From positions 2,170,001 through 2,234,000 of the forward strand of contig NZ_AP019846.1 in NCBI RefSeq assembly GCF_007990635.1: a stretch of DNA of 64,000 bases, written 5' to 3'. The notes under the pieces are model-generated. The model saw only the letters and a program-made list of their open reading frames with translations, was not told the origin of the DNA and made no database searches. A program made the position numbers and the translations under genes. The DNA comes from Leptotrichia hongkongensis. Lineage in GTDB: Bacteria; Fusobacteriota; Fusobacteriia; Fusobacteriales; Leptotrichiaceae. Shown in pieces: positions 2,079 to 51,153 of this stretch (position 1 is the stretch's first letter; each line of letters begins with the position of its first letter).

Positions 2079-2536
2079 TATACTAAATCTTGAATAAATT
2101 TTTATAATAGGGGTATTTGATAGCTAATTCATAATCATTCAACTTTTTTATTTTCGTAGGATTGCTAATTGGTATAAATCCTTATTTTACAGTAAAGATT
2201 TATCCTAATAATTAAAATTGTGACAAAATTAACCTATGACTAATCTATAATGTTTTTCTAAACTAACAAAAACAAATAGTTTCCCATCAAAAAAAATGCT
2301 ACAACAGATTATTTTATACCAGGTCTTGTTAAAAAAACCAAAATTATAGTAAAACTAGTTTAAAACAGAACTCAAAAATTATGACTATTTTACTCAAACC
2401 CTAAATTATATAATTTCTAGAAGTTTAATTTTAAATGGGTTCGAATATATATCTCAAAATTACTTGAAAACATTAATTTTATATCCTTTATTTAGAAAAG
2501 TTTTCAATAAATTCGTTATTTAGATGAGGATTAATA
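2079..2536. repeat. 400-bp-type repeat (copy B1), split by a smaller repeat
   Basis: Non-coding element that also occurs at 12584-12978 (nearly complete, opposite orientation) and 50913-51153 (deleted). Its ends are related to inverted TATACTAAACCC...ATTTAAA termini. Recognisable blocks are CATAATCATTCAAC, TTTTCGTAGGATTGCT and TATCCTTTATT.AGAAAAG. This copy is diverged and carries a 107-bp repeat of the other family at 2345-2451 between its central and right parts. With the flanks it fills most of the gene-free stretch 1884-2687. Confidence 0.75.
2345..2451 (+). repeat. 106-bp repeat (copy A1), nested inside B1
   Basis: Begins TATAGTAAAAC and ends ATGGGTTCGAATATATA. Four further copies lie at 8686-8791, 12346-12450, 55583-55688 and 58057-58161. 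Both ends start with TATA, and the outer 22 bases form an imperfect inverted repeat, as in a miniature transposable element with a TA target. Confidence 0.8.
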
Positions 2537-5929: not shown

Positions 5930-6793
5930 TTATTTTCTTCTTCCAAACATTTTATCCAAATCATTTCTAGAAAGTTTTACAATAATTGGACGTCCATGCG
6001 GACACGTATATTTCCCAACTTCGTGAATCCTTCGAACCATATTCTGCATTTCAAATGTGTCAAGTTTTTGTCCAGCCTTCACGGCTCCTTTGCATGACAT
6101 CGAAATAATAATATTTTCCCGCAAATCCTTTATTTCAACTTCATTTTTCAAATCCATAAGTAACTGTAAAAATACATTTTCAATGCTATCCCGAAAATCA
6201 AAGGCAGGCACGGCACGAATGACAACTTCATCTTCTGAAAATTCATCAATGTCAAATCCAAAATCTTTAAAAATGTCAACATTTTCAAAAATAATATTTT
6301 TTTCAATTTGTGTAACTTCCATTTTTAACGGTAATAATAAATGCTGTGATTCAATTTTATTATTATAAAACTTGTCCTTTAGCTCTTCATACAAAATTCT
6401 CTCATGGATAATATGCTGATCATAAATTTCCAGTTCGTCATCTCTGCGAACAAGAATATATGTGTCAAAAATCTGCCCTAGAATATCATAATGAAACTGC
6501 TTTCCGATATGTTTTTCAAACGTTCCGACTTTATAATGGGATTCATTTTCAGTATTTTCATTTATAGTATCAAAATTTCTATATTCAGTAGTATTTTTAT
6601 AATTCTCAAAATCACTTCTTTTATCCCAATTTTTCGTAGAATATTCATTCTTTGTCTTAAAGTTTTCCACATTGTTTTCCACAGTCATTTTTGAATCATC
6701 ATTCATCTTATTCCATATTTCATCAACGCTTAAATCATTTTCGTTTTTGTTTTTTATAAAGTTTTCACCATTTGAAAAACTATCATTACTCAT
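5930..6793 (-). CDS. mutL: MutL, C-terminal part (downstream of a frameshift)
   Basis: C-terminal dimerisation and endonuclease part of the mismatch-repair protein MutL, 287 residues as an independent frame. It contains the metal-binding endonuclease motif DQHIIHERILYEE (DQHA-x2-E-x4-E type), SCKGAVKAG and CPHGRPI, so it belongs to the nicking class of MutL found where MutH is absent. The ATG overlaps the N-terminal frame's stop (ATGA), but the frame is open seven codons further upstream. A normal MutL is one polypeptide, so this is half of a split gene. One additional base in the A5 run at 6809-6813 would join the halves into about 691 residues. Confidence 0.9.
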   Translation of the reverse strand: MSNDSFSNGENFIKNKNENDLSVDEIWNKMNDDSKMTVENNVENFKTKNEYSTKNWDKRSDFENYKNTTEYRNFDTINENTENESHYKVGTFEKHIGKQFHYDILGQIFDTYILVRRDDELEIYDQHIIHERILYEELKDKFYNNKIESQHLLLPLKMEVTQIEKNIIFENVDIFKDFGFDIDEFSEDEVVIRAVPAFDFRDSIENVFLQLLMDLKNEVEIKDLRENIIISMSCKGAVKAGQKLDTFEMQNMVRRIHEVGKYTCPHGRPIIVKLSRNDLDKMFGRRK

Positions 6794-8004
6794 ATTTTCA
6801 GAACTATCAAAAACTCAGAATTTTTATCATTTTTATTAAAATCATCCGCTGAAAAATTATCTTTCTCATTTAAATTTTTAGTATTTTCTAAACTTTTTCC
6901 GTCAAAAGTTTCCAAACTTATAACTTTTTGATTTTCCCCCTTCAAAACATCATGAGAAAACAAATCATCCTTTTCCAAAGCGACATTCTCATTAATATTC
7001 ATATTTTTCTTTATCAAGTCAATATTAGGTTGCCAGTTTTCTCTGTCATTGTAGTAAAAAAAGTCATCAATTGCTGATTTTATTTCATTATAAACAATTT
7101 TATCATTTGAGAATTTTATTATTTTTTTGGATGGGTGAACGTTTACATCTATTTCTTTTGGATCAGCATTGTAAAAAATAATTGCAAATGGATATTTCCC
7201 CTTCATTAATTTAGTGTAATAGCCGTCTATAACAGCACGTTCAATAGTTGCTGACTTTACATATCGGTTATTTACAAAAGTAAACATAAAGTCCTTTGAA
7301 CTTCGTAAAATTTCTACGTTACCTAAATATCCATATTCAAATTTTTTCAAATTTCTCAAAACTGACTTTCCAAATAATTCAAGAATTGTATTATCAATCC
7401 CTTTTCCACTTGTCTTTATCGTACTTTTCCCAGCGAGTTCCAGCGAAAAAGCCACATTACTGTTTGAAAGTGCTTCCTTTAGTACAATATCCCTAATTTT
7501 ACCGTATTCTGTTGACATTTTGCGTAAAAATTTCCGTCTGGCAGGCGTATTGTAAAATAAATCCCTGACTTCCATTTCTGTACCGACATTTCTCGAAACT
7601 TCCTCAAACTTTCTCACAACTCCGCCATAACAGCCAATTTTGTATCCTACAGGACTATTTTCAGAACGTGTAGTAATCGTAAGCTTAGACACCGCCGCAA
7701 TAGACGACAAAGCCTCTCCACGAAACCCATAAGTGTTTAAATTAAAAACATCTTCCTTTTCCTTAATTTTAGAAGTAGCATGCCGTTCCACCGACAAAAG
7801 AGTATCGTCCTTATCCATCCCAATTCCGTTATCACTTACTTTAACATCCGTTCCAGCTTTAAAAACCTCAATTTTTATCATTGTAGCCTTCGCATCCAGC
7901 GAGTTCTCAATCATCTCCTTAATCATCGAAGCTGGATTTTCCACAACTTCCCCAGCGGCAATAATATTTGACACTTTTTCATCAAGTATTTTTATATATC
8001 CCAC
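6790..8004 (-). CDS. mutL: MutL, N-terminal ATPase part (ends at a frameshift)
   Basis: N-terminal GHKL ATPase of MutL, 404 residues. Visible motifs: catalytic Glu30 and Asn34 in KEMIENSLDA, DNGIGM (about 58-63), YGFRGEAL (about 91-98), and the transducer-domain sequence HPSKKIIKF. The frame continues into an Asn/Lys/Glu/Asp-rich linker and stops after FLIVLKI, right after a run of five T on the coding strand. Linker sequence and the endonuclease domain continue in the next frame. Either the gene is inactivated or switchable, or a base was missed in the run. The upstream membrane-protein gene ends 19 bases before the start. Confidence 0.93.
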   Translation of the reverse strand: MGYIKILDEKVSNIIAAGEVVENPASMIKEMIENSLDAKATMIKIEVFKAGTDVKVSDNGIGMDKDDTLLSVERHATSKIKEKEDVFNLNTYGFRGEALSSIAAVSKLTITTRSENSPVGYKIGCYGGVVRKFEEVSRNVGTEMEVRDLFYNTPARRKFLRKMSTEYGKIRDIVLKEALSNSNVAFSLELAGKSTIKTSGKGIDNTILELFGKSVLRNLKKFEYGYLGNVEILRSSKDFMFTFVNNRYVKSATIERAVIDGYYTKLMKGKYPFAIIFYNADPKEIDVNVHPSKKIIKFSNDKIVYNEIKSAIDDFFYYNDRENWQPNIDLIKKNMNINENVALEKDDLFSHDVLKGENQKVISLETFDGKSLENTKNLNEKDNFSADDFNKNDKNSEFLIVLKI

Positions 8005-8023
8005 AATTTCTCCTCCTTTTTCA

Positions 8024-8581
8024 TCAGTTTTTCTTTTTTAAGACAAATACAGCTATCATACAGACAATTAATCCAGCAACTGCAGGCTTTAACATTGACA
8101 ATGCACTATTGCCAGTTAAAAGGTAGCTGTTAAATATTTTAAGAATTGCAGTTGCTATTAAAATTAATAAAAGTAATTTCCAGTTTTTTGTCAAAGTTGA
8201 AACTATTATAAAAATAAAAAAAATTATAACAGTAAAAAACAGGGCAATTTTATCCATTGTCCATCCACTTTTCAAATAATTTGCTTCAAAATTTAAAAAT
8301 TTTACAATTTCAGGATTAATTATATTTGGCTTTGGAAACCAGAACATGCTCGTAAACAGACCAAAAATAGAAATTGAAATTCCTGAAAACCTCTTTTTGT
8401 ATGCACTCCAGATTATTGGAATAATAAATAGTGGTCTAATATACCAGCTTAGTATATTATGGTGTCGCTGAAATGCCCACATAAAAAATATGTTATTACT
8501 AAAAAATAAATAAATTAAAATTATTGTCATAATTCCAAATAATATACCTATAGCTATGTCAAATTTTCTTGATTTATCCAT
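8024..8581 (-). CDS. Membrane protein, unknown function
   Basis: 185 residues with about five to six hydrophobic segments: near 9-28, 45-60, 65-83, 112-127, 131-150 and 160-182. A conserved-looking loop FQRHHNILSWYIRPLF (about 38-53) resembles a motif I have seen in uncharacterised small membrane proteins, but I cannot name the family. It sits 19 bases upstream of mutL and probably heads this operon. No signal peptide or enzyme motif is apparent. Confidence 0.7.
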   Translation of the reverse strand: MDKSRKFDIAIGILFGIMTIILIYLFFSNNIFFMWAFQRHHNILSWYIRPLFIIPIIWSAYKKRFSGISISIFGLFTSMFWFPKPNIINPEIVKFLNFEANYLKSGWTMDKIALFFTVIIFFIFIIVSTLTKNWKLLLLILIATAILKIFNSYLLTGNSALSMLKPAVAGLIVCMIAVFVLKKKN

Positions 8582-8685
8582 TATTCAAAATCCTTTCCAA
8601 AATATATTTTAACTCTTTCAATATTAAACTGATAAAATCAAACAATTTTAGGAATTATCATAATTTTTTATTTTCAATTTCAAAT

Positions 8686-8791
8686 TATACTCAAACCTAC
8701 TTAAAATTAAACTACTAAAAATTATATAAATTTAGGGTTTGAGTAAAATAGTCATAACTTTTAAGTTTTGTTTTAAAGCAGTTTTACTATA
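8686..8791 (-). repeat. 106-bp repeat (copy A2)
   Basis: Inverted relative to A1: starts TATACTCAAACC and ends GCAGTTTTACTATA. Within it ACTCAAACCTA can pair with AGGGTTTGAGT, and AGTAAAAT with GTTTTACT, giving two adjacent hairpins. It occupies most of the gap between the membrane-protein gene and mvaD. Confidence 0.8.
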
Positions 8792-8801
8792 ATTTTCACA
8801 A

Positions 8802-9785
8802 TTATAATTTCACAGTCTTGCTCACAATAATCTTATACTTTTCTTCAAAAATTTCTGCTAATTTTTCTAAATCCTCTTCCAAACAAAGTACCTTCACATT
8901 AGGCCCTGCATCCATTGTAAAATAGCATTTTTTGCCATTATTTCTCAAATTTTTTACAAAATCCATTGCTTCATAAGTTTTTTCATTAAAATATGTAAAT
9001 GGAGGATTTGCAGTTTCTGTTGTCTTGTGCATTCTAAGAGCATTCTCTTCTGTCAAAATTCCGACTTTTTCAAAATTATTTTCAGCAAGATATTTTTTCA
9101 TATTTACAAAGTCAATTTCCGATTGTTTTACCCACTCATCAAAATATGTTGAAGTTTTGGCACAAAGCTCCATTCCATTTCGGCTTGAAATTTCCTTTTT
9201 ATTTTCATTCAGCACAAGCACAATCATCGCCAGTTTCAAATCTGTCCTTACCTCATAAATTTCTCCAGTATCCTTATCCCAAGCAGCAATAGGTCCAAAA
9301 AAGCTTCTCGAAGATGAACCAGAACCAAATTTTGAAATCTGTGCAAGTTCAGATTGCGTATAGTTTTTTCCAAAAAGTTCATTACAAGCCTTTATTACAG
9401 CCGATAAACCACTGGAACTAGAAGAAAGTCCCGCAGCTGTGGGCATATTATTTGTTGTAGAAATTTTCACCTTCTGACTTCTATTTTCCCTGAATAAATC
9501 TACAACTTTACTAATCTTTTCTGTATGCACACTATCCTGTAATTCTCCATTCAAATAAAACAAATCTGTCATGTCGGCATATTTATCTTTACAATTTTCG
9601 CTTTTTATATCTTTTTCAACTGCAATTTTAATATCTTCATCATTTATAAATTCCAGCTCTGTTTCTGTAAACATATCGTTAAGAGTAAGGGAAATACTGC
9701 TTGTAGAAGGTATCATTTTTTCTGCATCTTTTTTCCCCCAGTATTTTACAATCGCAATATTAGCATAAGATTTGACTTTTACCAT
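8802..9785 (-). CDS. mvaD: Diphosphomevalonate decarboxylase
   Basis: GHMP-kinase-fold enzyme that turns mevalonate diphosphate into isopentenyl diphosphate with ATP. It is 327 residues, normal length. Motifs: SYANIAIVKYWGKKD (about 6-20), the phosphate loop MPTAAGLSSSSSGLSA (about 108-123), and MDAGPNVKVLC (about 295-305). It lies 21 bases after the mevalonate kinase gene and is clearly its operon partner. GGAG precedes the ATG. Phosphomevalonate kinase, which acts between the two, is not in the window. Confidence 0.96.
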   Translation of the reverse strand: MVKVKSYANIAIVKYWGKKDAEKMIPSTSSISLTLNDMFTETELEFINDEDIKIAVEKDIKSENCKDKYADMTDLFYLNGELQDSVHTEKISKVVDLFRENRSQKVKISTTNNMPTAAGLSSSSSGLSAVIKACNELFGKNYTQSELAQISKFGSGSSSRSFFGPIAAWDKDTGEIYEVRTDLKLAMIVLVLNENKKEISSRNGMELCAKTSTYFDEWVKQSEIDFVNMKKYLAENNFEKVGILTEENALRMHKTTETANPPFTYFNEKTYEAMDFVKNLRNNGKKCYFTMDAGPNVKVLCLEEDLEKLAEIFEEKYKIIVSKTVKL

Positions 9786-9806
9786 TTTTACTCCTTTATT
9801 TTCTTA

Positions 9807-10703
9807 TTAAATTTTCTCCACCCAAATATTCTCTGCCCCACATTTTAACAATTCATCTTTTATTTTTTCTACAATTTCCATATTTTTAGCAAGTGCGATT
9901 ACACAGCCTCCTAATCCTCCGCCAGAAATTTTTGCCCCACTTGCTCCGTTTTCGATTGCTGTTTTTACAAATAAGTCTGTTTTTTCAATTGTTATATTCA
10001 AGTTTCGGAGTTTTGTATTTGCTTTTGTCATAATTTTTCCTATTTTATCAACTTTTTCTTCTTTGGATCCAATATTTTCAGTTAAGATTTTAATTATTTC
10101 ATCTGTCAATTCACCTAGTTTCTTTAAAGAAATATCGGCTTTACTTCCTAAATTTTTCACATTCTGAATTGCCTCACTAGTATTTCCGTAAATGCCTGTA
10201 TCTGCAATTACAAGATATGCACCAAGATTTAAGTCAATGTAAGAAAATCCCTTATTTTTTATGAATTTTATGGCTTTATCGCTTAGGCATGTTTTGGCAT
10301 CTATCCCGCTCGGAGTTTTATGAGCCACGATTTCCGCCGCATGAACTAGTTTTTCCAGTAATTCATCATCCAGATTTTTCTCAAAATAGTCAAATACTGC
10401 TCGGATTGCAGCAATACTGACTGCAGCTGAAGAGCCCATACCACGTTTGGGTGGAATCTGGGAAACTACTTTGTATTTTATTTTTGCATTTTCTTTTTTT
10501 AAATGTCTTAATGCAGTAAAAACTGCAACTGAAAGAGTATCTGTCTTGTTATAAAAAAAGCTAGTTTTTGCTTCTTCGACTACACATTCAATTTCAATCT
10601 TTTTTAGTGGAATAGCAATGGCAGGATAACCATAAACGACAGAATGTTCCCCAATTAATATGATTTTACTATGTGATTTCCCGATACCTTTTTTCATCTG
10701 CAC
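9807..10703 (-). CDS. mvk: Mevalonate kinase
   Basis: Phosphorylates mevalonate in the mevalonate route to isoprenoids. About 298 residues with the three GHMP motifs: KIILIGEHSVVYGYPAIAIPL (about 13-33), PPKRGMGSSAAVSIA (about 84-98) and GAKISGGGLGGCVIAL (about 258-273). Two starts are possible: GTG at 10703 (five bases after AAGGAG) or ATG at 10697 (eleven bases after). It is the first gene of a two-gene operon with mvaD. Confidence 0.95.
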   Translation of the reverse strand: MQMKKGIGKSHSKIILIGEHSVVYGYPAIAIPLKKIEIECVVEEAKTSFFYNKTDTLSVAVFTALRHLKKENAKIKYKVVSQIPPKRGMGSSAAVSIAAIRAVFDYFEKNLDDELLEKLVHAAEIVAHKTPSGIDAKTCLSDKAIKFIKNKGFSYIDLNLGAYLVIADTGIYGNTSEAIQNVKNLGSKADISLKKLGELTDEIIKILTENIGSKEEKVDKIGKIMTKANTKLRNLNITIEKTDLFVKTAIENGASGAKISGGGLGGCVIALAKNMEIVEKIKDELLKCGAENIWVEKI

Positions 10704-10871
10704 TCAATCTCCTTAAAGTTACGACTATTATTTTCAAACTCCCATATTTCAAATCTTCATAAATTTCGTATTAAAAGAGTTCGTTTATAAATTGTAAGTT
10801 AATTATACTAAAAAAATTGAGATAATCCAATATTTTTTGTTAACATAATTTGTAAATATATAATTTTATTT

Positions 10872-12254
10872 TTATTTTGTCTTTATTCTTAATAGTCTGT
10901 CTTTCAAATTTTCTAATTTTTCTGATAATTTTACTCTTCTAGTTTTCAGCTTTTCACTATAAATTTTTTTTAAGTAAATCAAATTGCTGTCATAATATTC
11001 CTTTGCCTCTTTTAAATCTAAAAGCTCATAACTTTTTTCTATTTTTTTACCATTTTCAATATAATTTATCGTTATTTTTTGTATATTCTCTATATTTTCC
11101 AATTTTTCTTCTTCTAATGTCACAACATCATAAAAATCCTGATTTTCATAAACTCTATATAAATCCTTGTTTCCTGGCAATGATGTTTTTCCACTTTCAT
11201 CAGAAATTTTCATTACGTCATTTTCATTAATTTTAGACATTTTATATACAGTGCTTATTTCTCTTTCTGGCAATGCTATGGCATCTCCTACTCCAAATAC
11301 ATCAACTTCTGCCTGATTTTTTATTAGATTTGCTATTTTTTTGTCGTCAAGTCCGCTCGTTAATACAATTTTCGCCTTGTAAAGTCCATTTTTATCCAGT
11401 ATTTTCCTACATTCTTTTGACAATTTCTCCAAATTTCCCGAATCTATCCTTATTCCATACATTCCTTCGTATTTATCATCTATGCCATTATCTTTAAATG
11501 CCTTCACAGCACTAATTATTCCTCTCTCAAGAGTGTCATAAGTATCAATTAGCATTATAAGAGCCTGATTTTTGTTCCTATACATTTTTATAAAAGCGTC
11601 AAAAGCCTTGTATTCGGCACTTTCTCCCATTCCAAAAGTTTGGATAAAGCCATGTGTCATCGTTCCTGTACTTTTCAAGTCATAAAGATATTCTGCCGCA
11701 AGATTTGAGTGAGATATGCAGCCAGCTACATAGCTAGCTTTTGTCATTGTCATCGCCGCATCAAATCCAGCTGTTCTTCTTGTTCCAAATGAAAGCACTC
11801 CCCTTCCTTCAGCCGCTAGCACAATTTTAGAAGTGACTGTTGCCGCAAGTGTCTGAAAATGAAGAATATTCAAAATAGGCGTTTCAAGGATTTTCCCTTG
11901 TATAAGTGGAGCAGTAATCGTTAGTATTGGCTCATTTGAAAATATAATTTCTCCATCTCGTACCCCTTTTATCGTACCTGTAAATTTCATATTCGCAATA
12001 TATTCGATAAAATCAGAATTATCAAATATTTTTGACAAATATTTCTTCTTATCGTCATAAGAAGTTTCGTTAAGTATCTCGATAAGCTCAAGAACATCAG
12101 ATATCCCATATACTACAGCATAGTCATTTTCTTTTTTTGTACGCAAAAATACATCAAAAGTTGCAATTTCATTTTGCATATTATTTTTTAAATAAATCTC
12201 ACTTTCTGTGTACTGATACCTGTCTGAATTTAAAAATTTAAAAAATTTTTCCAT
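10872..12254 (-). CDS. pncB: Nicotinate phosphoribosyltransferase
   Basis: Joins nicotinate to phosphoribosyl pyrophosphate, the first step of the Preiss-Handler salvage route to NAD. 460 residues. Characteristic segments: LNSDRYQYTESEIYL at the N-terminus, SFGTRRTAGFDAA (about 150-162), GTMTHGFIQTFGMGE (about 190-204), YGIRIDSGNL (about 265-274) and DVFGVGDAIALP (about 310-321). The last 70 or so residues form a charged, Lys/Glu-rich helical tail. A GAGGT site precedes the ATG. It appears to be transcribed alone. Confidence 0.95.
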   Translation of the reverse strand: MEKFFKFLNSDRYQYTESEIYLKNNMQNEIATFDVFLRTKKENDYAVVYGISDVLELIEILNETSYDDKKKYLSKIFDNSDFIEYIANMKFTGTIKGVRDGEIIFSNEPILTITAPLIQGKILETPILNILHFQTLAATVTSKIVLAAEGRGVLSFGTRRTAGFDAAMTMTKASYVAGCISHSNLAAEYLYDLKSTGTMTHGFIQTFGMGESAEYKAFDAFIKMYRNKNQALIMLIDTYDTLERGIISAVKAFKDNGIDDKYEGMYGIRIDSGNLEKLSKECRKILDKNGLYKAKIVLTSGLDDKKIANLIKNQAEVDVFGVGDAIALPEREISTVYKMSKINENDVMKISDESGKTSLPGNKDLYRVYENQDFYDVVTLEEEKLENIENIQKITINYIENGKKIEKSYELLDLKEAKEYYDSNLIYLKKIYSEKLKTRRVKLSEKLENLKDRLLRIKTK

Positions 12255-12345
12255 AAAATAACCTCATTTTGTATTTTTTTCTATTATCTCATATTTTAGC
12301 TTTATTTAAAAGAAAATAATTTTTATTTTAATTCTATAAAATAAA

Positions 12346-12450
12346 TATAGTAAAACTAGTTTAAAACAAAACTCAAAAATTATGACTATTTTACTCAAAC
12401 CCTAAATTATATAATTTCTATCAGTTCAATTTTAAATGGGTTCGAGTATA
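12346..12450 (+). repeat. 106-bp repeat (copy A3)
   Basis: Same orientation as A1 and nearly identical to it, from TATAGTAAAACTAGTTTAAAAC to GGGTTCGAGTATA. It lies in the gene-free stretch 12255-13192, upstream of pncB, and does not interrupt another repeat here. Confidence 0.8.
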
Positions 12451-12583
12451 TATTAAAAAAATAATCATAATACACTAAAAATTATTTTAAAATTATGGCT
12501 TTTCTATCTGTAGTTAACTTTTAAAAAAATTGAAATAAAATTTTTAAAATAACAGATTAGTCAAAATATAGTTTCTTTGGTTT

Positions 12584-12978
12584 TATACTAAACCCTATTT
12601 AAATGACGAATTTATTATAAACTTTTCTAATAAAGAATATAAATCTAATATTTTCAAATAATTTAAGATATAATTTTCATTTTTTAAACAGAATCTAGTA
12701 TAAATAACTCGTCAGAGCATTTTTCTGTGCTGGCAAAACTGTTTGAGCATAGTGAGTTTTTTGTCAGTACAGAAAAATGTCGTAGACTAGCCATAGGTTA
12801 TTGCGTAGCAATCTTGCCAAATGTTTTGATTATCAGGATAAACCTTTACTGCAAGATAAGGATTTGCGGCAATGAGCAATCCTACGAAAATAATAATAAA
12901 AAATGAATGATTATGAATTAGCTATTGAACAACTCTATTATAAAAATTTATTCTCACTTTTAAATGGGGTTTAGTATT
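12584..12978 (-). repeat. 400-bp repeat, most complete copy (B2)
   Basis: Bounded by inverted ends: TATACTAAACCCTATTTAAA on the left and TTTAAATGGGGTTTAGTATT on the right. It contains a long stem-loop (12717-12780) in which 22 bases from GCATTTTTCTG to GGCAAAA pair with TTTTGTC to AAAAATGT, allowing G-T pairs. No convincing open frame is present. Diverged or deleted copies are at 2079-2536 and 50913-51153, with an end fragment at 58010-58056. It looks like a non-autonomous mobile element. Confidence 0.78.
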
Positions 12979-13192
12979 AATTTAAAAAACATATAAATAG
13001 GATTTTATTATCAATAATAGTAAAATTAATTACAATAGAATAGAAAACGAAAAGATTTATTTTTTATCTGTAATGAAAAACGAGTCTATAAAATATGTTT
13101 TGAAAAGCTGGAATTTTTATCAAAATATTTTATTATAAAAAAAACTACTGAAAACAGCAGCTTGTTTATATCTTATACTATTTAATTTTAAA

Positions 13193-13267
13193 TGGCTGGG
13201 CTGAATGGATTCGAACCATTGCATGCTGGAGTCAAAGTCCAGTGCCTTACCGCTTGGCGACAGCCCA
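13193..13267 (-). tRNA. tRNA-Gln (anticodon UUG)
   Basis: The minus strand folds as a cloverleaf: acceptor TGGGCTG/CAGCCCA, anticodon stem CTGGA/TCCAG with loop CTTTGAC (anticodon TTG), and T-loop GGTTCGAATCC. The discriminator base is G and the terminal CCA is encoded. It decodes CAA and CAG. No other tRNA is next to it. Confidence 0.96.
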
Positions 13268-13386
13268 ACAATATCTCTACAAGACAAGAACTATTATACA
13301 AAATAAATTTGATTTTGTCAACTATTTTTTAAACTTTTTTATCTAAAGTATGTATAGTTGTCAAACATTTGTTACAAAAATATTTT

Positions 13387-13433
13387 AAAAGTCTGTCTAA
13401 TTATTAATATATTTTATTCCTAGACAGACTTTT
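13387..13433. terminator. Strong two-way terminator
   Basis: Thirteen-base arms AAAAGTCTGTCTA and TAGACAGACTTTT are perfect complements. It lies directly downstream of the exported-protein gene at 13452-14108 and ends that minus-strand unit. Confidence 0.85.
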
Positions 13434-13451
13434 ATTGTTTCAAAATATTTT

Positions 13452-14108
13452 TTAATTACTACCTTTTATTATTTTTTCTAGGTTTTCTGCCTTCCATTTA
13501 CCATTTACTTTTTTAAGTATTGCTGGTAAATCTTGCACTATTACTTCTTCTTCAGTAACTTTTTTGGCTTCTTGTTCAAACATATTTATTCTTTCTTGAA
13601 TTGCAATATTGTAGTAATTTCGTTTTATAGGTTCATTTCCTTTTTTTCTCATAATTTCTTCAAATTCATCTCTGCTAATTTTTGATTTTTCTAAAATTTT
13701 TCTTTCTGTTTCTTCATCCAAATCCAACATATCTGAAACTGTTCTTAAGCTCTTAGATCTTATATCATAAATTGCTTCTGCTTCTTCATCTGAAATGTAA
13801 TTTATTTGTTTTATATCAAATTTTAATCTTGTTTCATTTGCTGTAATTCTCGAAATTTCTCTTACATATTTTTCTACAATTTCTCTTTTTAAAGAATTGC
13901 TTATTACATAATCTTTAAACAGTCTATTATAAGCTTCTTTTTCAAGCTTTTTCTCATTATCTCTTATTCCTTCATTTACAATTGTAAAAAAATACGATTG
14001 CAGCCTGCTTCGAAGCATTTTCTGTATTGCTCTGTCTTCAGTAGAATTGTTTACTGCAAAAATATTTCCTGCCATTACCATCATAATCAAAAATAATATT
14101 TTTTTCAT
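13452..14108 (-). CDS. Exported protein, paralogue 1 of 3, unknown function
   Basis: 218 residues with a signal peptide (MKKILFLIMMVMAGNIFA, residues 1-18) and a hydrophilic, helix-rich mature part. Shared landmarks with the two genes upstream: DYVISNSLKREI (about 68-79), KQINYISDEEAEAIYDI, a MLDLDEETERKILEK stretch and the closing KKVNGKWKAE. The last motif recalls the C-terminal strand of NTF2-like exported proteins, a weak structural guess. AAGGAG precedes the ATG. It is the third gene of a tandem triplet beginning at the end of cbiF. Confidence 0.75.
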   Translation of the reverse strand: MKKILFLIMMVMAGNIFAVNNSTEDRAIQKMLRSRLQSYFFTIVNEGIRDNEKKLEKEAYNRLFKDYVISNSLKREIVEKYVREISRITANETRLKFDIKQINYISDEEAEAIYDIRSKSLRTVSDMLDLDEETERKILEKSKISRDEFEEIMRKKGNEPIKRNYYNIAIQERINMFEQEAKKVTEEEVIVQDLPAILKKVNGKWKAENLEKIIKGSN

Positions 14109-14192
14109 ATCGACTCCTTATTTTTTAAATTATTTATAAACTTTTAAAATTTATTTCTATTAAATTATACCACATTTTTTTATAAAAGTTGC

Positions 14193-14876
14193 TTATTTTT
14201 CTACTTGCCATCTGCCGTTCACTTTTTTTAGCATAACTGATATATCTTCTAATAAACTTTCCTCTTCTTTTGTTTCTTTTATTTCTTTATTAAGAAGAGT
14301 TATCATTTCATCCAATAATGTGTAATAGAATTTTTTCTTTAATTCCTCATTTCCTTTGCTTTTCATTATTTTTTCTGTTTCTTCCATATTTTTAGCTCCT
14401 ACTTTTGCCAAAAATTCTTTTTCCAGCTTTTCATCAAAGTCCAACATATCCCAAACTTTATCTATATTTTTAATTTTTATATCATAATCTACCTCAACTT
14501 GATTTTGAGAAATATAATTAATTTTTTTTACCACAACTTTAGGTTTAACAGCACTAAACACAAACTTCAGCATTTCATCAGTAAATTTTTTCCCGATTTC
14601 CTTTTTCAAACTATTACTTAACACATAATCCTTTTCAAATAAACTATCTGTAGAAAATTTTGAAGCCTCTTTATTCATCTCTGCTTTCATAGCACTCGTA
14701 ACCATATCTACAAATGGCTGCATTCCGATTTGAACAGCATTTTCAATCTCGTTTCTCTCACTTTCTGATATTCTGCTTGTTGCTGTAGTTCTTGCACTTT
14801 TAGTCTTTTGTGACTTTGGTGCTGCCAACATATTTCCCATTACTGCCAGCATTAATACAAATAATAATTTTTTCAT
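14193..14876 (-). CDS. Exported protein, paralogue 2 of 3, unknown function
   Basis: 227 residues with a signal peptide ending about ANMLAA-type sequence (residues 1-19), then a basic, Ser/Thr-rich stretch (about 20-40). The family landmarks are present: DYVLSNSLKKEIGKKF, VKKINYISQNQVEVDYDI, MLDFDEKLEKEFLAK and the end LKKVNGRWQVEK. It is closer in sequence to paralogue 1 than to paralogue 3. A good site (GAGGAG) lies before the ATG. It is not recognised as a named family and is probably a periplasmic protein. Confidence 0.75.
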   Translation of the reverse strand: MKKLLFVLMLAVMGNMLAAPKSQKTKSARTTATSRISESERNEIENAVQIGMQPFVDMVTSAMKAEMNKEASKFSTDSLFEKDYVLSNSLKKEIGKKFTDEMLKFVFSAVKPKVVVKKINYISQNQVEVDYDIKIKNIDKVWDMLDFDEKLEKEFLAKVGAKNMEETEKIMKSKGNEELKKKFYYTLLDEMITLLNKEIKETKEEESLLEDISVMLKKVNGRWQVEK

Positions 14877-14966
14877 AAAATCTCCTCGCTTTATCTTTTA
14901 GTTACCTTATAAGAAGTATAACACATTTTTTAAAAATATTAAAATTTATTATTTTTTTAAATAAAA

Positions 14967-15007
14967 AACACGATTATCAAACTATTATCCAGTTTTTTAA
15001 TCATGTT
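14967..15007 (-). terminator. Terminator after exported paralogue 3
   Basis: On the minus strand AACATGATTA pairs with TAATCGTGTT (one mismatch), followed by a T-run. It could partly separate paralogue 3 from paralogue 2. Confidence 0.6.
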
Positions 15008-15015
15008 ATTTTTTA

Positions 15016-15642
15016 TCACTTCATTTTTTTTAACATTTCTTCAAATTTTTCTGCATCCTTAAATTTCCATTCATTCCCGATTTTATTTAATTCATCCGTT
15101 ACTTTATCTGTCACATAATTCTTAGGATTTCGCATTCCTTCTCTTAACATTTCCTTCATTATATCTTTCCATTTTTTTACTTCTGAAAGACTAACAAAAT
15201 CTTCATCGTCTTTTATTTCATATCCATATTTTTTAAAAAATCTTTTTTTAATTTCTTTTTCATCTAAAATTTTATCCAAATCAAGAATAACTACTTCATA
15301 AGTAACAGAAACCTTTGTATTTGATAAATATTTTACAGTTTTTATATTAAAGTTAAATATTTCAGAAAAAAAACTAGAAAATTCTTTTGGTAGCAATTGC
15401 ATACTCTCTTTTTCTTCTTTACTCATTTCATTATTTACTTTACTTGCTACAGGAAAATAATATGAAATCATTTCTTTTAACACTTTCTTAGGATATTTAC
15501 TCACTGTTTCTTCAATTTTCTTATTCTCCAAATCAATCTGCTCTTTTGACAAAGTAACATTTTTTTGCTTTATTACTTGATACTGCCCTGCAAAAATTTG
15601 CATGGAAAATATAAATAGAATTATTGTTATTAGTTTTTTCAT
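15016..15642 (-). CDS. Exported protein, paralogue 3 of 3, coupled to cbiF
   Basis: 208 residues with a signal peptide (MKKLITIILFIFSMQIFA). The mature part follows the same plan as the two genes downstream, more diverged: VKYLSNTKVSVTYEV for the central strand, a LDKILDEKEIKKRFFKKYG stretch, and KIGNEWKFKD at the end. Its ATG overlaps the cbiF stop by one base (TAATG) and its ribosome site lies inside the cbiF end, so translation is coupled to a cobalamin gene. Whether it has any role in corrinoid or cobalt handling is unknown. Confidence 0.75.
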   Translation of the reverse strand: MKKLITIILFIFSMQIFAGQYQVIKQKNVTLSKEQIDLENKKIEETVSKYPKKVLKEMISYYFPVASKVNNEMSKEEKESMQLLPKEFSSFFSEIFNFNIKTVKYLSNTKVSVTYEVVILDLDKILDEKEIKKRFFKKYGYEIKDDEDFVSLSEVKKWKDIMKEMLREGMRNPKNYVTDKVTDELNKIGNEWKFKDAEKFEEMLKKMK

Positions 15643-16403
15643 TATTCCTTAATTCCCTTTCTAAACTCATGTGAAAATGCCTTATCGTAAAGTTTAGACT
15701 TAGAATATTCGTTCCCCATAAAGTTTCCTACAAGAATTTGTGCTGTTTTTGTGATTTTTTCCTTTTTCACAAGTTCGGCAATGTTTTCTAATGTTCCCAT
15801 AACAATTTTCTGATCTTCCCAAGTTGCTCTTTGAACAATTGCAATTGGCGTTGTTTTATCATAATGCTTTAATAATCTTTTTACAACTTCATCAATCATT
15901 TGCACAGATAGGAATATTGCCATCGAACATTTATGCGAAGCAAGGCTTTCAAGACTTTCTGCTTCAGGAACAGATGTTCTTCCTTCCAACCTTGTACAGA
16001 TTATTGTCTGACTCACATCTGGCAAAGTAAATTCTTTTTTTATTGCAGCAGCAGCAGCCACAAATGAACTCACTCCTGGAATTACTTCATATTCAATCCC
16101 ATATTCATCCAAAATATCCATTTGTTCCCTTATTGCACCATAAATGCTCGGATCCCCAGTATGCACCCTTGCTACCTGTTTTCCCTTTTTCTGTGCCTTT
16201 ATCGTAACTTCCATCACTTCGTCCAAGTTCATTGAAGCAGAATTATAAATTTCAGCTCCATCCTTATGGCAATCAATAACCTCTTTTGGAACCAACGACC
16301 CCGCATAAATTATTACATCTGCTTCCTTTACAATTTTTTGCCCTTTTACTGTAATCAATTCAGGATCTCCTGGTCCTGCTCCTATGAAGTATACTTTTTT
16401 CAT
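15642..16403 (-). CDS. cbiF: Cobalt-precorrin-4 C11-methyltransferase
   Basis: Adds the C-11 methyl group during corrin ring synthesis using S-adenosylmethionine. 253 residues from ATG 16403, chosen because AGAGG lies about seven bases before it; the frame is open further upstream but lacks a site there. Motifs of the tetrapyrrole methylase family: KVYFIGAGPGDPELITVKG at the N-terminus, ARVHTGDPSIYGAIREQMD (about 80-98), VIPGVSSFVAAAAA and TICTR-like IICTRLEGRT. The exported triplet follows with a one-base overlap, while upstream lies a decayed gene instead of another cbi gene. Confidence 0.95.
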   Translation of the reverse strand: MKKVYFIGAGPGDPELITVKGQKIVKEADVIIYAGSLVPKEVIDCHKDGAEIYNSASMNLDEVMEVTIKAQKKGKQVARVHTGDPSIYGAIREQMDILDEYGIEYEVIPGVSSFVAAAAAIKKEFTLPDVSQTIICTRLEGRTSVPEAESLESLASHKCSMAIFLSVQMIDEVVKRLLKHYDKTTPIAIVQRATWEDQKIVMGTLENIAELVKKEKITKTAQILVGNFMGNEYSKSKLYDKAFSHEFRKGIKE

Positions 16404-16489
16404 AAAATTACCTCTTTCTTTTTTAATTTTTTTATTTTTATAATATTTCATTTATTTGAAAACTTACTGATATTTCTGTATTCAAATAT

Positions 16490-16742
16490 ATTTTTTATCA
16501 TAAGATGTACTAAAAATTTTATAATAATGGAATTATCTCAATTTTCAGGACACTGTCTGTAATTTTTGATATTTTAAGTAAAATTTTCTCATATTAAATA
16601 AATTTGATTTTGAAAAGTCCTTTTCATATTCTTTTGACAATTCTTTTAAAAGTTTTTTCCTATATTCCACTCTCTCATTATTTTTCTGATTATCTTCTAT
16701 AATAACTTTCCAAATTTTCCAATAAGTCTGCATAAGAATATG
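16490..16742 (-). pseudogene. Remnant of a YhcG-type (DUF1016/PDDEXK) gene
   Basis: A 62-codon open piece contains MQTYWKIWKVI, ERVEYRKKLLKELSKEYE and DFSKSNLFNMRKFYL, which closely follow the N-terminal domain of DUF1016/YhcG proteins. After QTVS there is a stop. The next codons still read like the family (KLR, stop, FHYYKIFSTSYD), so the gene has decayed by point stops and lost its C-terminal nuclease domain. Upstream, a TAA four codons before the first ATG also interrupts the frame. It sits between cbiF and the membrane-protein gene. Confidence 0.7.
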
Positions 16743-16936
16743 TTAATCTTTACAGACACATGTTTTCTCACATTTTTCAGTAATTCTTTAATTTATAAAC
16801 AAAACATATTATTTTCGATTTCTATTTCAAAAGTTTGACTTAATTCTGTGTATCTTTTTTCTTTGTATCGTAAATTCCTTTTACAATTGTTTCTGCTAGT
16901 CCTTAAATTGCCATTAAAAATGAAAAAATATTTTTT

Positions 16937-17428
16937 TCATAATAATTTCTTCTTCCTTTTATTATTTATTTTCAAAGTTCCCAAATAAAATCCCATATTA
17001 ACAATCATCGCATAAACAAAGTACCTCGACTCTAACGACTTTATAATCCCAAATTTTTCGAGACTATTTTCCCCTTCTTCAAAATACATCAAAACTTTGT
17101 AGGGGAAAGTATAAATTATTGCGTGATAGTCTTCTTTATACCAATTAAACCCCATAAAAATAAATATTCCCATAATTATTAGACAACCTGCTATTGTCAG
17201 TATTCTTACAACTTCAATTTCTTCTTTATCAAAATATTTTTTTATAAAAAATCCAAAACAAACATTAATAATAAAAAATGGAATTAAAATACTAAATTGG
17301 CTCATATCTCCATAAATTCCAAACATACTTTTTACCATTTCGACAAAAATTCCAAAGCAAATTGCAAAACCAGGAATTAAAAAGTACATTGAAATAAACC
17401 ATAATATAATTTTTGAAACTTTGGACAA
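16937..17428 (-). pseudogene. Membrane protein, C-terminal part (after a frameshift)
   Basis: 163 residues when read from a TTG at 17428, with about four to five hydrophobic segments and a basic end (NNKRKKKLL). There is no ribosome site before the TTG. The frame stays open upstream for about 44 more codons (reading ...FINTLIVFRIDIIGVIKLCFYNGLFILAILQ), up to the point where the other membrane frame at 17547-17807 ends. Removing one base from the A5 run at 17551-17555 fuses both into one reading frame of 289 residues. No known family is recognised. Confidence 0.6.
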
Positions 17429-17546
17429 ATAACTTTTTACTGTTACTTTACTTTGAAGTATTGCTAAAATGAAAAGTCCGTTGTAAAAACACAGTTTTAT
17501 AACCCCAATAATGTCTATTCTAAAGACGATAAGGGTATTGATAAAA

Positions 17547-17807
17547 TTATAAAAATATCGGTAATTTCAAAATTTTGTCATTTTCATAATTTTTACTTTT
17601 CCCCATTGAATAAAATATCCATCCAAAAATTATTCCTGTTATTGCTGAAAATATTCCACCAAATAATAACCGAAATGGCAAATCAAAGCCATAATCCCAA
17701 TCATATTTTCCAATCCAAAAATAATACATAAATAATAAAATTTGTAAAACTATAAATATTATTATTTTAGGTTTTAACTTTTTTACGCTTTTAGAAATCT
17801 CTTCCAT
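17547..17807 (-). pseudogene. Membrane protein, N-terminal part (before a frameshift)
   Basis: 86 residues starting MEEISKSVKKLK, with two membrane segments (about 14-32 and 45-68). The ATG lies inside the end of cbiL (25-base overlap), so translation may be coupled. The frame stops after KLPIFL just past a five-T run on the coding strand, and membrane-protein sequence continues in another frame through 17428 to 16937. Considered with that piece, it is one broken gene or contains a sequencing slip. Confidence 0.6.
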
Positions 17808-18511
17808 TCATCTATTCCCTGTTTTTTAAGAATTAATGTAGAAAAATAATGTACACTTTCAACATTTTCAATATCTGTAATAATTTCTTCATTTTCTTTC
17901 CCACAGTTTGAAACAATAACTATATTTTCTTTATTTCCTGTTTCAATAATCGCTCTTTTTATTCTCTCAAAATCTCGGCTTATTTTCATTAACACTAGAT
18001 TTTCGTTATTTTCAATTTCTTTATGAACATCAGTTTTTCTGCTGACAGACACTATTTTTAAATCTTCATCTCCAACCATAAGCGGTATATTAAGCCTTGC
18101 CGCAATACTGTTAAACGAAGTTATTCCCGCAATAGTTTCAACTTCCACATCATCTGAAATATGTTCCAATACATAAGTATAAGTACTATAAGTCATCGGA
18201 TCACCTATTGTTAAAAACGCTACATTTTTACCTTTTTCCAATTCAGCACTTATTACATCCGCATTATTTTTTCTAAAAACTTTTCTCGCTTCCACATCTC
18301 TTATCATAGGAAATTCCAAAAATAGCTGCTCTACTTCTGGTTTTACATATTCTTTTACAATATTAAAGGCTGTACTTCCTTCTCCGCTTTTTGCCTCAGG
18401 CAGTACTATCACATCTACTTCATGCAGTCTTTTTGCTGCTTTAACTGTTATATTTTCAGGATCTCCTACTCCTACACCAATACCATAAAATTTACCTAAT
18501 TTACTAGCCAT
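17783..18511 (-). CDS. cbiL: Cobalt-precorrin-2 C20-methyltransferase
   Basis: Methylates C-20 of cobalt-factor II/precorrin-2 with S-adenosylmethionine, the first committed corrin step after cobalt insertion. 242 residues. Family motifs: GKFYGIGVGVGDPENITVKA (about 6-25), PEAKSGEGSTAFNI, AFLTIGDPMTYSTYTYV (about 98-114) and ETIAGITSFNSIAARL. A GAGGAG site precedes the ATG. The neighbouring gene overlaps its end. The 442 bases upstream, toward cbiD, hold only debris, so the operon may be interrupted there. Confidence 0.95.
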   Translation of the reverse strand: MASKLGKFYGIGVGVGDPENITVKAAKRLHEVDVIVLPEAKSGEGSTAFNIVKEYVKPEVEQLFLEFPMIRDVEARKVFRKNNADVISAELEKGKNVAFLTIGDPMTYSTYTYVLEHISDDVEVETIAGITSFNSIAARLNIPLMVGDEDLKIVSVSRKTDVHKEIENNENLVLMKISRDFERIKRAIIETGNKENIVIVSNCGKENEEIITDIENVESVHYFSTLILKKQGIDEWKRFLKA

Positions 18512-18953
18512 TTTTTCTCCTCTAATTTATTTTTTCTACACTATAAATATACTTTATTGCATTTTCAACTTCTTTTCTTGAAGTAGAATAAGTTTTTTTA
18601 TTATCTTCATAATAATCATATTCATAGCATTTATGTTTAAAATTTTCTATTTTAAAATCATTCAAATTCAGCTTCTTTTCTTCTCGTTGTTATTATTTCC
18701 CAGGTCTATATTTTTAATGCTTTTTTTTAATTATATAATTTTCAGGAATACATTCCGCAAATTTTAGAATTTTGAATTTTTTTTAGGAATATAATCCTGT
18801 AATTTAAAAATTATCAATGAGGTTTTACTAACTTTTACTTCTTCGTAAATTTAATTAAACTTTTTTATAAACTATATACATTACAGTATATAGCCCGTTT
18901 TTTTGCCCTATTGGCAATAACCATAACAACTTCTCTATCCTTAAAGTTATTTT
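18512..18953 (-). other. Gene-free gap between cbiD and cbiL
   Basis: No complete gene. On the minus strand two short coding-like pieces appear: one reading DREVVMVIANRAKKRAIY just after cbiD (about 18880-18945), and an open stretch of about 50 codons ending EVENAIKYIYSVEKIN just before cbiL (about 18524-18670). Neither has a convincing start plus ribosome site, and several stops separate them. The region could be a decayed gene in a place where other genomes carry further cbi genes, but the pieces do not match any cbi protein I recognise. Confidence 0.4.
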
Positions 18954-20060
18954 TTAAAAATTATCAAAAAAGTGCTTACTATGCCCTATAACTTCTTTTT
19001 CAGCTGATAAAATCAATGTTTCCACTTCCAGATTCCATCCATTTTTTCTGCAATGTTCCTCACATTTTTGTTTTGCTTTTTCAGCTAGCAAGTTAAAGAC
19101 TTCTTTTTTTTCAATGTACCCAGAAGCCTCTTCAGTTGTATTCGATTCCAGAATTTTATAGACATTTTCTAGCTTTTCACCCACTAACAATGCGTTTGCA
19201 GCCAAAATTTCCATTTTTGCATCAGAAACTCGACTGTGTGTATGAAAAATTCCTCCTGCCACTTTTACAAATTTTCCTAATTCTCCAATAAAATAAATTT
19301 TCTTAACTTCAAATTCACATGCCTTGTCAAACATATATCCCACAAAATTACTGATTACAACACCCTCTTCAGACTTTTCTGGAAATTCCTTTTTCAAAAA
19401 CATTTTTCCTCTATTTCCAAAAAGAAATATCGCTGTTTTTGTATTAAAATATGTTAAATTTTGCTTCAGCTCTATTGCAAGGGAAGCCTTCCATGACTCT
19501 TCAGACATCGGACGTACAATTCCCATTGTTCCAAGAATAGAAATTCCGCCAATAATTCCTAATTTCCCATTCATTGTTTTTTTGGCAGCTTCTTCACCCA
19601 GAGGCACGCTAATTTCAACATCTACTCCTTTTCCAGATGGAAGAAGTTCTTTCACAATACCAGTCAGCATTTTCATTGGCGTTGGATTTATTGCTGATTT
19701 TCCAACTTCAACAGGAAGTCCAATTTTTGTGACTTTTCCGACTCCTTTTCCTCCAAAAATATTGATTTTATCATCTTCTCTAAAACTTACTTTTGATATG
19801 ATTTCTAGACCGTGTGTCGCATCAGGGTCATCTCCCCCATCTTTTATGACAGTTGCTGTTGCATAATCCTCTGTCTTTTCAAAAGACTTAATCTTAATTT
19901 TTATCTTTTTACCTGCTGGAACATCTATTTCAACTTCTTCGACTTTTTCAGCTTTTCCTAGTAAAAGTAACAGTGCCGCCTTAGTCGCTGCTGTTGCCGA
20001 ACTTCCTGTGGTATAGCCATATCGCAGTTTTCTACCGTTAAAATATACATAATTTTCCAT
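18954..20060 (-). CDS. cbiD: Cobalt-precorrin-5B C1-methyltransferase
   Basis: Anaerobic-pathway methyltransferase acting at C-1 in corrin synthesis. 368 residues. The N-terminus KLRYGYTTGSSATAATKAAL (about 11-30) is the hallmark of CbiD, followed by VIKDGGDDPDATHGLEI (about 71-87), GGISILGTMGIVRPMSEES and the C-terminal HTHSRVSDAKMEILA. It lies 134 bases after cbiC. Its presence, with cbiK, indicates the oxygen-independent (early cobalt insertion) route. Confidence 0.96.
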   Translation of the reverse strand: MENYVYFNGRKLRYGYTTGSSATAATKAALLLLLGKAEKVEEVEIDVPAGKKIKIKIKSFEKTEDYATATVIKDGGDDPDATHGLEIISKVSFREDDKINIFGGKGVGKVTKIGLPVEVGKSAINPTPMKMLTGIVKELLPSGKGVDVEISVPLGEEAAKKTMNGKLGIIGGISILGTMGIVRPMSEESWKASLAIELKQNLTYFNTKTAIFLFGNRGKMFLKKEFPEKSEEGVVISNFVGYMFDKACEFEVKKIYFIGELGKFVKVAGGIFHTHSRVSDAKMEILAANALLVGEKLENVYKILESNTTEEASGYIEKKEVFNLLAEKAKQKCEEHCRKNGWNLEVETLILSAEKEVIGHSKHFFDNF

Positions 20061-24883: not shown

Positions 24884-25027
24884 AGCCAATACACGTCAAA
24901 ACTTCCACAACAATAACTATATCACCATCGTATAGTACGCTTATGGAACAAATCACCGTTGATTTATTTTTACATTGATGTATATTAAATCTTCCCTTCC
25001 CAGAAAATTTTATATAAAAAATTATTA

Positions 25028-25180
25028 GGCAAGTCTCCTGACTAACTTCATCCTACTCGTACCCTTCCCAAAATATCCAAGATATCTCAGTGGTTTTGTG
25101 TACTTTCGTCAGCTTCACAGTAGTGGGGGCTGTATCGGATTCTAACCGATTTCCTTATTAAGTTTGTAAAACACCTATAA
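25028..25180 (-). ncRNA. Cobalamin riboswitch 1 (before cbiMNQO)
   Basis: Reading the minus strand, the conserved blocks of the adenosylcobalamin riboswitch appear in order: TATAGGTG, AATAAGGAAATC, GAATCCGATACAGCCCCC, ACTACTGTGA, GACGAAAGTA, CCACTGAG, GGGAAGGGTACGAGTAGGATGA and the B12 box AGTCAGGAGACTTGCC. A promoter lies just upstream and a terminator downstream. A GGGAAGGGA copy repeats about 20 bases after the aptamer, as it does in riboswitch 2. Confidence 0.95.
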
Positions 25181-25192
25181 TTCTTTACTATT

Positions 25193-25220
25193 ATTATACT
25201 CTCTTTCTTATATTTGTCAA
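25193..25220 (-). promoter_or_regulatory. Promoter of the cbiM riboswitch operon
   Basis: On the minus strand, perfect TTGACA (25220-25215), a 16-base spacer and perfect TATAAT (25198-25193), about a dozen bases before the aptamer. Confidence 0.75.
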
Positions 25221-32580: not shown

Positions 32581-32682
32581 AAAATTTATATATTAAAACA
32601 GATGGATAGTATTTATGCAGATTTACAGCAGTTTTTATATATTAAATTTTTCCCTTCCCGAAAAATAAAATTTTTTAATATA

Positions 32683-32834
32683 GGCAAGTCTCCTGACTAA
32701 CTTCATCCTACTCATACCCTTCCCAAAATATAATTATATTCCAGTGGTTTTTCAGTACTTTCGTCAGTATCACAGTAGAGGTGGCTGTACCAGATTCTAA
32801 CTAGTTTCCTTATTAAGTTTTACAACACCTATAA
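32683..32834 (-). ncRNA. Cobalamin riboswitch 2 (before the nickel/peptide-type ABC operon)
   Basis: Same conserved blocks as riboswitch 1 on the minus strand: TATAGGTG, AATAAGGAAACTAG, AATCTGGTACAGCC, CTACTGTGATACTGACGAAAG, CCACTGGAA, GGGAAGGGTATGAGTAGGATGA and the B12 box AGTCAGGAGACTTGCC. It begins about 33 bases after the cbiK stop. No strong promoter is seen in between, so transcripts may also enter from cbiK. Confidence 0.94.
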
Positions 32835-32866
32835 AATTATAAATTTAAAATTATTCTTTTGCTATA

Positions 32867-50912: not shown

Positions 50913-51153
50913 AATACTAAACCTCGTTTAAAAATTAAAATAAATTTTTATAATAGGGGTGTTCAACAGTTAATTCATAATCATTCAACTTTTTTATTTT
51001 CGTAGGATTGCTCATTGCCACACAGAAAAATGCTCTGACAGGTTATTTGTACTAGAATTTGATTGAAAAATTTAATTATTTAAAAATATTAGGTTTATAT
51101 CCTTTATTAGAAAAGTTTGTAATAAATTTGTTATTTAAATGAAGGTTAATATA
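50913..51153 (+). repeat. 400-bp-type repeat with an internal deletion (copy B3)
   Basis: Starts TAATACTAAACC, runs through CATAATCATTCAACTTTTTTATTTTCGTAGGATTGCTCATTGCC, read in parts, then jumps straight to CAGAAAAATGCTCTGACAGG and ends with TTATATCCTTTATTAGAAAAG and ATGAAGGTTAATATA. Compared with 12584-12978 about 155 central bases are absent, including one arm of the long stem. It fills most of the 351-base gap before the GmhB gene. Confidence 0.72.

Follow-up and report, generated by a model that had tools for sequence, protein, structure and literature searches.

BOX elements of Streptococcus, Correia and ERIC elements, the bcr1 repeat and GTAG/CGTC-tagged REPs are the described systems closest to the repeat family examined here. 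In Streptococcus suis, the same inner boxB type lies between two different pairs of end modules, according to the part of PMC3049150 that was available. Correia and ERIC elements are MITEs whose transcripts fold and can be cut by RNase, with mRNA levels altered (PMC10969869, available in part). We found no description of the Leptotrichia family treated below among the open-licence papers searched: it is not described in the available parts of PMC8040213, PMC3035221 and PMC5093955, and the main text of the study on tagged REPs (PMC3733652) contains neither the word Leptotrichia nor Fusobacter.

Structure and location of the element

The locus lies in a window of 64,000 nucleotides (the whole stretch of DNA that was analysed) from the source genome, G000. 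The initial annotation had described a non-coding element with inverted ends and a 22-bp internal stem. Its ends and stem were recovered at the positions claimed, and the exact element measures 391 bp (12586-12976, plus strand), starting with TACTAAACCC, stopping with GGGTTTAGTA and lying between TTA repeats (Table 1). It is a long-form copy with a hairpin of type T1 (see below). The stem consists of Watson-Crick and G-T pairs alone, as had been stated, with 19 of the former and 3 of the latter among its 22 pairs. It is the only perfect stem of at least 22 pairs (loop of at most 60) in the 64-kb window, and each of six first-order Markov resamples of the window contained none. The predicted RNA fold of 12584-12978 reaches -99.3 kcal/mol, whereas shuffled sequences average -64.6 (z -7.24). 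Hairpin 1 scores 102.6 bits with the covariance model R1, of which this copy is itself a member.

The claim that no open frame accounts for the element also held, as none of the 19 ORFs of at least 80 aa listed for 6000-20000 overlaps it. Its neighbours are an ORF at 10872-12254 (minus), which, named from its letters alone, reads like a nicotinate phosphoribosyltransferase, and a tRNA gene at 13196-13267 (minus). Rfam matches over the window were limited to one tRNA and two cobalamin riboswitches (25011-25193 and 32666-32847, both minus), none of them in the element; over 12500-13050, six matches were returned, all below the gathering score. No terminator was called inside the element and by eye no U-run follows either hairpin, while promoter-like matches occur inside it on both strands.

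Table 1. Parts of the 391-bp element and its flanking triplets, in window coordinates.
Feature	Position	Strand	Remarks
Left target duplication TTA	12583..12585	.	Duplication demonstrated by empty sites at two other copies, not at this one
Left terminal inverted repeat TACTAAACCCTATTTAAATG	12586..12605	+	
Left AT-rich arm	12606..12709	+	Evolves faster than the core (divergence 0.180 vs 0.091, 10 copies of the source genome)
Hairpin 1	12717..12780	+	Stem 12717-12738 with 12759-12780; loop carries CTGTTTGAGC..GAGTTT
Conserved linker TCGTAGACTAGCCATAGG	12780..12797	+	
Optional module, ~56 bp	12800..12858	+	At one site, present or absent depending on species
Hairpin 2	12859..12883	+	AGGATT/AATCCT, loop around GGCAATGA; stem letters depend on type
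A-rich stretch and right arm	12884..12956	+	
Right terminal inverted repeat	12957..12976	-	CTTTTAAATGGGGTTTAGTA on the plus strand
Right target duplication TTA	12977..12979	.	

The window holds further repeats. A repeat of ~60 bp at 12391-12451 adjoins the element and has related ends (TACTCAAACCC..GGGTTCGAGTA), and ends resembling TACTCAAACCTATTTAAA and TACTCGAACCCATTTAAA occur repeatedly in the source genome among the matches listed by the end-pattern search. At 2092-2536 (minus) lies another copy of the element, decayed and with its hairpin disrupted, and more end-like sequences, with 2-3 mismatches to the pattern of the terminal inverted repeat (TIR), were seen at 50915, 55585, 55716, 58012 and 58059. 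Elsewhere in the window, two overlapping minus-strand ORFs (5930-6793 and 6790-8004), going by their translations, look like two portions of a single MutL protein (C-terminal and N-terminal, respectively), as if mutL were frameshifted in the source genome.

Copy number and distribution

Where the initial annotation spoke of a best copy, this one proved to be one among many. A genome-wide search with it gave at least 56 element matches in the source genome (40 of 218 candidates scored), and the covariance model of hairpin 1 gave at least 70 (133 of 3592 candidates scored). The model matched in 12 of 13 Leptotrichia genomes, with 10 to at least 133 matches each (54 and 51 in G009 and G010), G007 being the sole genome of the genus without one, and in none of 20 other genomes of the family. 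Across 98 genomes of the phylum, 17 had matches, comprising the 12 in the genus and five outside it, the latter with 1-4 weak candidate matches each (best E values 6.5e-7 to 9.3e-6). Because these weak matches remain candidates, restriction to the genus is not proven. A T3-like pattern, scanned over a genome collection, hit a single stretch, which is in Leptotrichia. Phage and plasmid collections, from which records of this and near genomes may be absent, yielded no element match. A pattern for the linker (T1/T2 motif) matched one contig of a viral collection (L406 from IMG/VR, 97988 bases).

Insertion and mobility

Among 35 rows with full ends (orthologues included), the flanks read TNA on both sides in 33. 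The flanking triplets are identical in 22 of the 35, against an expectation of 15.2 when the middle base is shuffled (5 of 2000 shuffles as high). Since the middle base differs in 11 of the 33 TNA rows, many copies are without an intact duplication. Joined 140-base flanks of nine copies were searched against 13 genomes, and eight alignments were examined. Four of these are clean empty sites, for two copies and in four relatives: the site of L016 is empty in G010 and G006, with a single TTA left, and that of L013 is empty in G011 and G008, with a single TAA left. The remaining alignments comprise one with a remnant of ~60 bp and three too diverged at the junction. As the empty sites keep one TTA or TAA, insertion duplicates 3 bp, TNA. 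For the copy at 12586-12976 we found no empty site; in relatives with a matching left flank, the alignment breaks off short of the element, and the side with the tRNA is found in another place. The element is short, non-coding and multi-copy, with terminal inverted repeats and a target-site duplication seen at empty sites, all of which are marks of a MITE. Going by the clean empty sites of two other copies and their 3-bp TNA duplication, the family has the behaviour of a non-autonomous DNA transposon (MITE).

A parent transposase was sought with PF01609, Y1_Tnp and end patterns, a scope that covers part of the possible families. The PF01609 profile, searched over 13 genomes of the genus, had no match in the source genome, and no autonomous element with the same ends was found, either at the PF01609 loci or among the matches listed for end patterns in the source genome. 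The 3-bp TNA duplication, which we take to point to the IS1031 group of IS5, is shared with the IS5 family, but no IS5-type element found in the genus has these ends. The IS5-like element of G001 has differing ends (TAGGGCGTGTCTGAAAAC), and the Leptotrichia element is therefore not filed as an IS5 member.

Other mobile sequences were encountered beside the copies. The IS5-like element of G001 (L169:1427-2368) lies where a T2 copy ends, with a closely similar second T2 copy directly downstream. Two further repeat families, with many matches across the genus, lie in the flanks of L010 and L015 in the source genome (query blocks 704-834 and 1125-1275). A stretch of ~520 bp in the source genome (L005:2107-2627) is missing from the G006 counterpart (L088/L103), where the aligned flanks overlap by 8 bp, and is possibly another mobile element.

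Pairing and covariation in the hairpins

Hairpin 1 occurs in three types, T1, T2 and T3, in which the stem letters differ and the loop and linker are conserved: the loop CTGTYTGA..GAGTTT and the linker AGACNAGCC are common to all three in nearly all rows. From 322 fuzzy pattern matches (loci fetched), we obtained 140 T1 (109 distinct) and 21 T2 (18 distinct) hairpins; T3 was discovered via the shared loop. The remaining 161 scored too low to be classed; among the matches listed these were mostly unrelated sequence, together with some decayed or hairpin-less copies such as L022, L023, L232 and L274, so that badly decayed copies such as L023 stand outside the T1 and T2 figures.

The types were compared in 32 hairpins chosen for diversity (14 T1, 8 T2, 10 T3), whose cells are not independent. 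In this set 95.4% of 764 cells pair, against 45.5-57.2% with slid partners, and 171 cells are changed on both sides, against 55.9 after shuffling. None of 500 shuffles was as high for pairing, two-sided cells or covariation score, counts that are not probabilities because the sequences are related. Two-sided changes affect 15 of 24 pairs, which does not exceed what shuffling yields (mean 14.0; 160 of 500 as high), and RNAalifold independently gave 19 pairs, 15 of them with double changes. What separates the types amounts to a small number of events, each counted repeatedly. T3 alone has 98.7% of 229 cells paired and five pairs changed on both sides, against 1.7 when shuffled (0 of 500 as high). 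T1 alone is 97.1% paired, against 96.8% in shuffles (0 of 300 as high), and T2 alone, at 97.1% against 97.0%, is not above them (151 of 300 as high).

With signals in T1 and T2 weak or absent, the covariation evidence rests on the differences between types and on T3. The covariation check proposed in the initial annotation thus came out in favour of kept pairing for the types together and for T3, barely for T1 and not for T2. The same annotation had named, as an outcome that would count against it, a stem disrupted as often as the rest of the element, and here T1 gives a mixed answer. Its stem and loop show nearly equal numbers of substitutions per site (0.042 and 0.043), with 0.060 in the 5' flank and 0.021 in the 3' linker; among the 199 stem cells that changed, pairing survives in 127 and is lost in 72. 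Hairpin 2 also retains its fold with differing stem letters, in T1, T3 and two types of G012, around a loop like GGCRATGA. Pairing has thus been kept while letters changed, and comparison of the copies gives good evidence that the fold itself matters.

The hairpin module in a second mobile frame

G012 has 149 matches to the hairpin model (150 candidates scored), most of which are made up by ~70 head-to-head pairs spaced ~25 bp apart. The unit there is a reversed T3-like hairpin plus a T1-like hairpin between the ends GATGGTTTAAAA and TTTTACTCTGTC. Both ends were seen in 19 of 30 loci, where the units measure 457-480 bp apart from a single one of 432 bp; duplications in those 19 are exactly 10 bp in 13 and 9 or 11 bp in two, and four show none clearly. 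G005 likewise has a head-to-head T3-like/T1-like pair (L041). Since the G012 backbone has other ends and 10-bp duplications, the hairpin module is common to two mobile frames.

Genomic setting of the copies

In a survey of the neighbours of 59 elements (simple ORF rule, orthologues partly removed by hand), 57 are free of overlap by an ORF of at least 80 aa; 47 lie between co-directional genes, 9 between convergent and 3 between divergent ones. The optional module appears as a core indel of 56-57 bases between orthologous copies in 12 of 35 comparisons, some of the loci having been fetched twice. Several orthologous sites carry the element in opposite orientations. In-place inversion, as in a phase switch, was considered for nine such cases and rejected: identity within the element is 70-89%, with closer flanks, and the boundaries often differ. 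Given this low identity and the differing boundaries, the opposite orientations are read as separate or nested insertions.

Possible reasons for the kept fold

We consider it likely that this is a Leptotrichia family of MITE type with TNA duplications, carrying a folded module that selection has kept, most likely as RNA. The element has the TIR TACTAAACCCC and the 3-bp TNA target duplications of a non-autonomous transposon, and an IS5-type DDE transposase no longer present in the source genome probably mobilised it in trans. The folded module comprises, in order, hairpin 1, the linker, the optional insert of 56 bp, hairpin 2 and the A-rich tail. Selection would retain the module folding on the plus strand, most likely as RNA within a neighbouring transcript, where it may stabilise the RNA or offer RNases a place to cut, in the manner known from BOX, Correia and ERIC elements. 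The copies, their ends and distribution, the duplications at two empty sites, stems that covary (between types and in T3) and the presence of the module in a second backbone are observed, whereas the transposase, transcription and any influence on transcripts are inferred.

The initial annotation had taken the G-T pairs of the stem as a hint of RNA pairing. A G-T excess is indeed seen, but composition accounts for part of it: the 32 hairpins contain 99 G-T cells and 7 A-C cells, and the slid controls also favour G-T (620 vs 291 in total). Of the T1 Watson-Crick pairs altered by a transition to one or the other, 55 became G-T and 16 A-C (per distinct copy), or 13 vs 9 as distinct changes, and the figures for T2 are 13 and 6, or 8 vs 6 distinct changes. 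Folding as RNA instead of single-stranded DNA is thus only suggested by these counts, which are not decisive.

The fold could instead be needed as single-stranded DNA or a cruciform during spread of the element (for recognition, excision or replication), with copies decaying freely after insertion, which we regard as possible if rather unlikely. Divergence among copies fits such an account. Ten paralogues of the source genome (one of them T2, L024) differ by 0.180 and 0.202 in the arms and 0.091 in the core, and in twelve orthologous pairs the values differ little (0.041 and 0.032 in the arms, 0.025 in the core). Because the orthologous core is only slightly slower than the arms, any selection acting on individual copies is weak, and the core appears held together among paralogues more than conserved after insertion. 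This pattern fits selection during spread or gene conversion between copies as well as host use. There is also no clear orientation bias to transcription, with strands mixed and the 47 elements between co-directional genes split into 27 opposed and 20 in the same direction. On the other hand, on the plus strand the consensus stems of the three types contain no A-C and, respectively, 4, 3 and 2 G-T pairs, a pattern to which composition contributes, and a cruciform would be expected to favour perfect symmetry. No DDE-type MITE is known to need internal hairpins, which we count against a DNA fold. The mostly head-to-head hairpins of G012, as seen for CGTC palindromic repeats (PMC3733652, available in part), speak for it.

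The two frames invite a stronger form of the RNA reading, which we put forward tentatively and hold to be unlikely. The hairpin module could be a persisting RNA-acting cassette taken up by at least two MITE frames (3-bp TNA; 10-bp with GATGG ends in G012), its stems drifting in compensated pairs. It would act via the conserved loop and linker, to which, for example, a ribonuclease or an RNA-binding protein could attach.

It is improbable that the hairpin is a functionless palindrome whose symmetry stems from few founders and is refreshed by template switching or gene conversion. In G011, five copies (L086, L101, L117, L119, L120) have one variant of the 3' arm and linker in common, and at least one of them, L101, is orthologous to a normal copy of the source genome, which suggests gene conversion or assembly collapse. 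Pairing hardly above shuffles within T1 and not above them within T2 agrees with this view, as does the dependence among covariation cells that follows from there being few hairpin types. Hairpin 1 has also been lost from L022, L232 and L274, in the first two apparently between short direct repeats at the hairpin feet. Yet the compensated pairs of T3 (L294, L295, L041, L313/L314) exceed the shuffled number while loop and linker letters stay, and hairpin 2 keeps its fold through changes of its own stem letters.

Mobilisation by a Y1 (HUH) transposase, which would make this a REP or IS200/IS605-type element, is already disfavoured and very improbable: CGTC and GGAG letters near the hairpin foot, the head-to-head pairs of G012 and Y1_Tnp matches in 10 of 13 genomes of the genus recall it, but G000, G009 and G010 have no Y1_Tnp match despite 70, 54 and 51 hairpin matches, the inverted ends come with target duplications of 3 bp or 10 bp, and in place of the 20-40 bp palindrome with Y1 transposase of REP/RAYT systems (PMC3733652, in the part available) there is a hairpin of 64 nt.

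Comparison with known systems

The family is best described as MITEs that have preserved an internal fold, which makes it a variant of a kind already known. If our preferred reading, a module selected most likely as RNA, is right, then in most of the Leptotrichia genomes searched the copies of a fold kept through the rewriting of its letters number from ten to well over a hundred, and this fold travels in more than one transposon frame. Filled and empty sites, presence or absence of the optional module and three stem types would then form a natural experiment on the effect of MITE-borne hairpins on host transcripts.

The known systems resemble the family to different degrees, and the comparisons apply to the parts of the cited papers that were available. 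GTAG/CGTC-tagged REPs are likewise palindromic, often head-to-head and found mainly between co-directional and convergent genes, but their units of 20-40 bp sit in another frame (PMC3733652). Like the Leptotrichia element, bcr1 is a repeat of one bacterial group (Bacillus cereus) that is listed with a conserved structure, although at 147-167 bp and in another host (PMC2267715). For Correia elements, cleavage is named at the TIRs, whereas the conserved fold in Leptotrichia is the internal hairpin (PMC10969869). By analogy, BOX elements of Streptococcus are the nearest known kind in build: they too are multi-copy and modular, with a predicted fold, an optional inner module and one module in two frames (PMC3049150). 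Unlike BOX, the Leptotrichia element has inverted ends, 3-bp duplications, empty sites and wholesale differences in stem letters; the two are likened by build.
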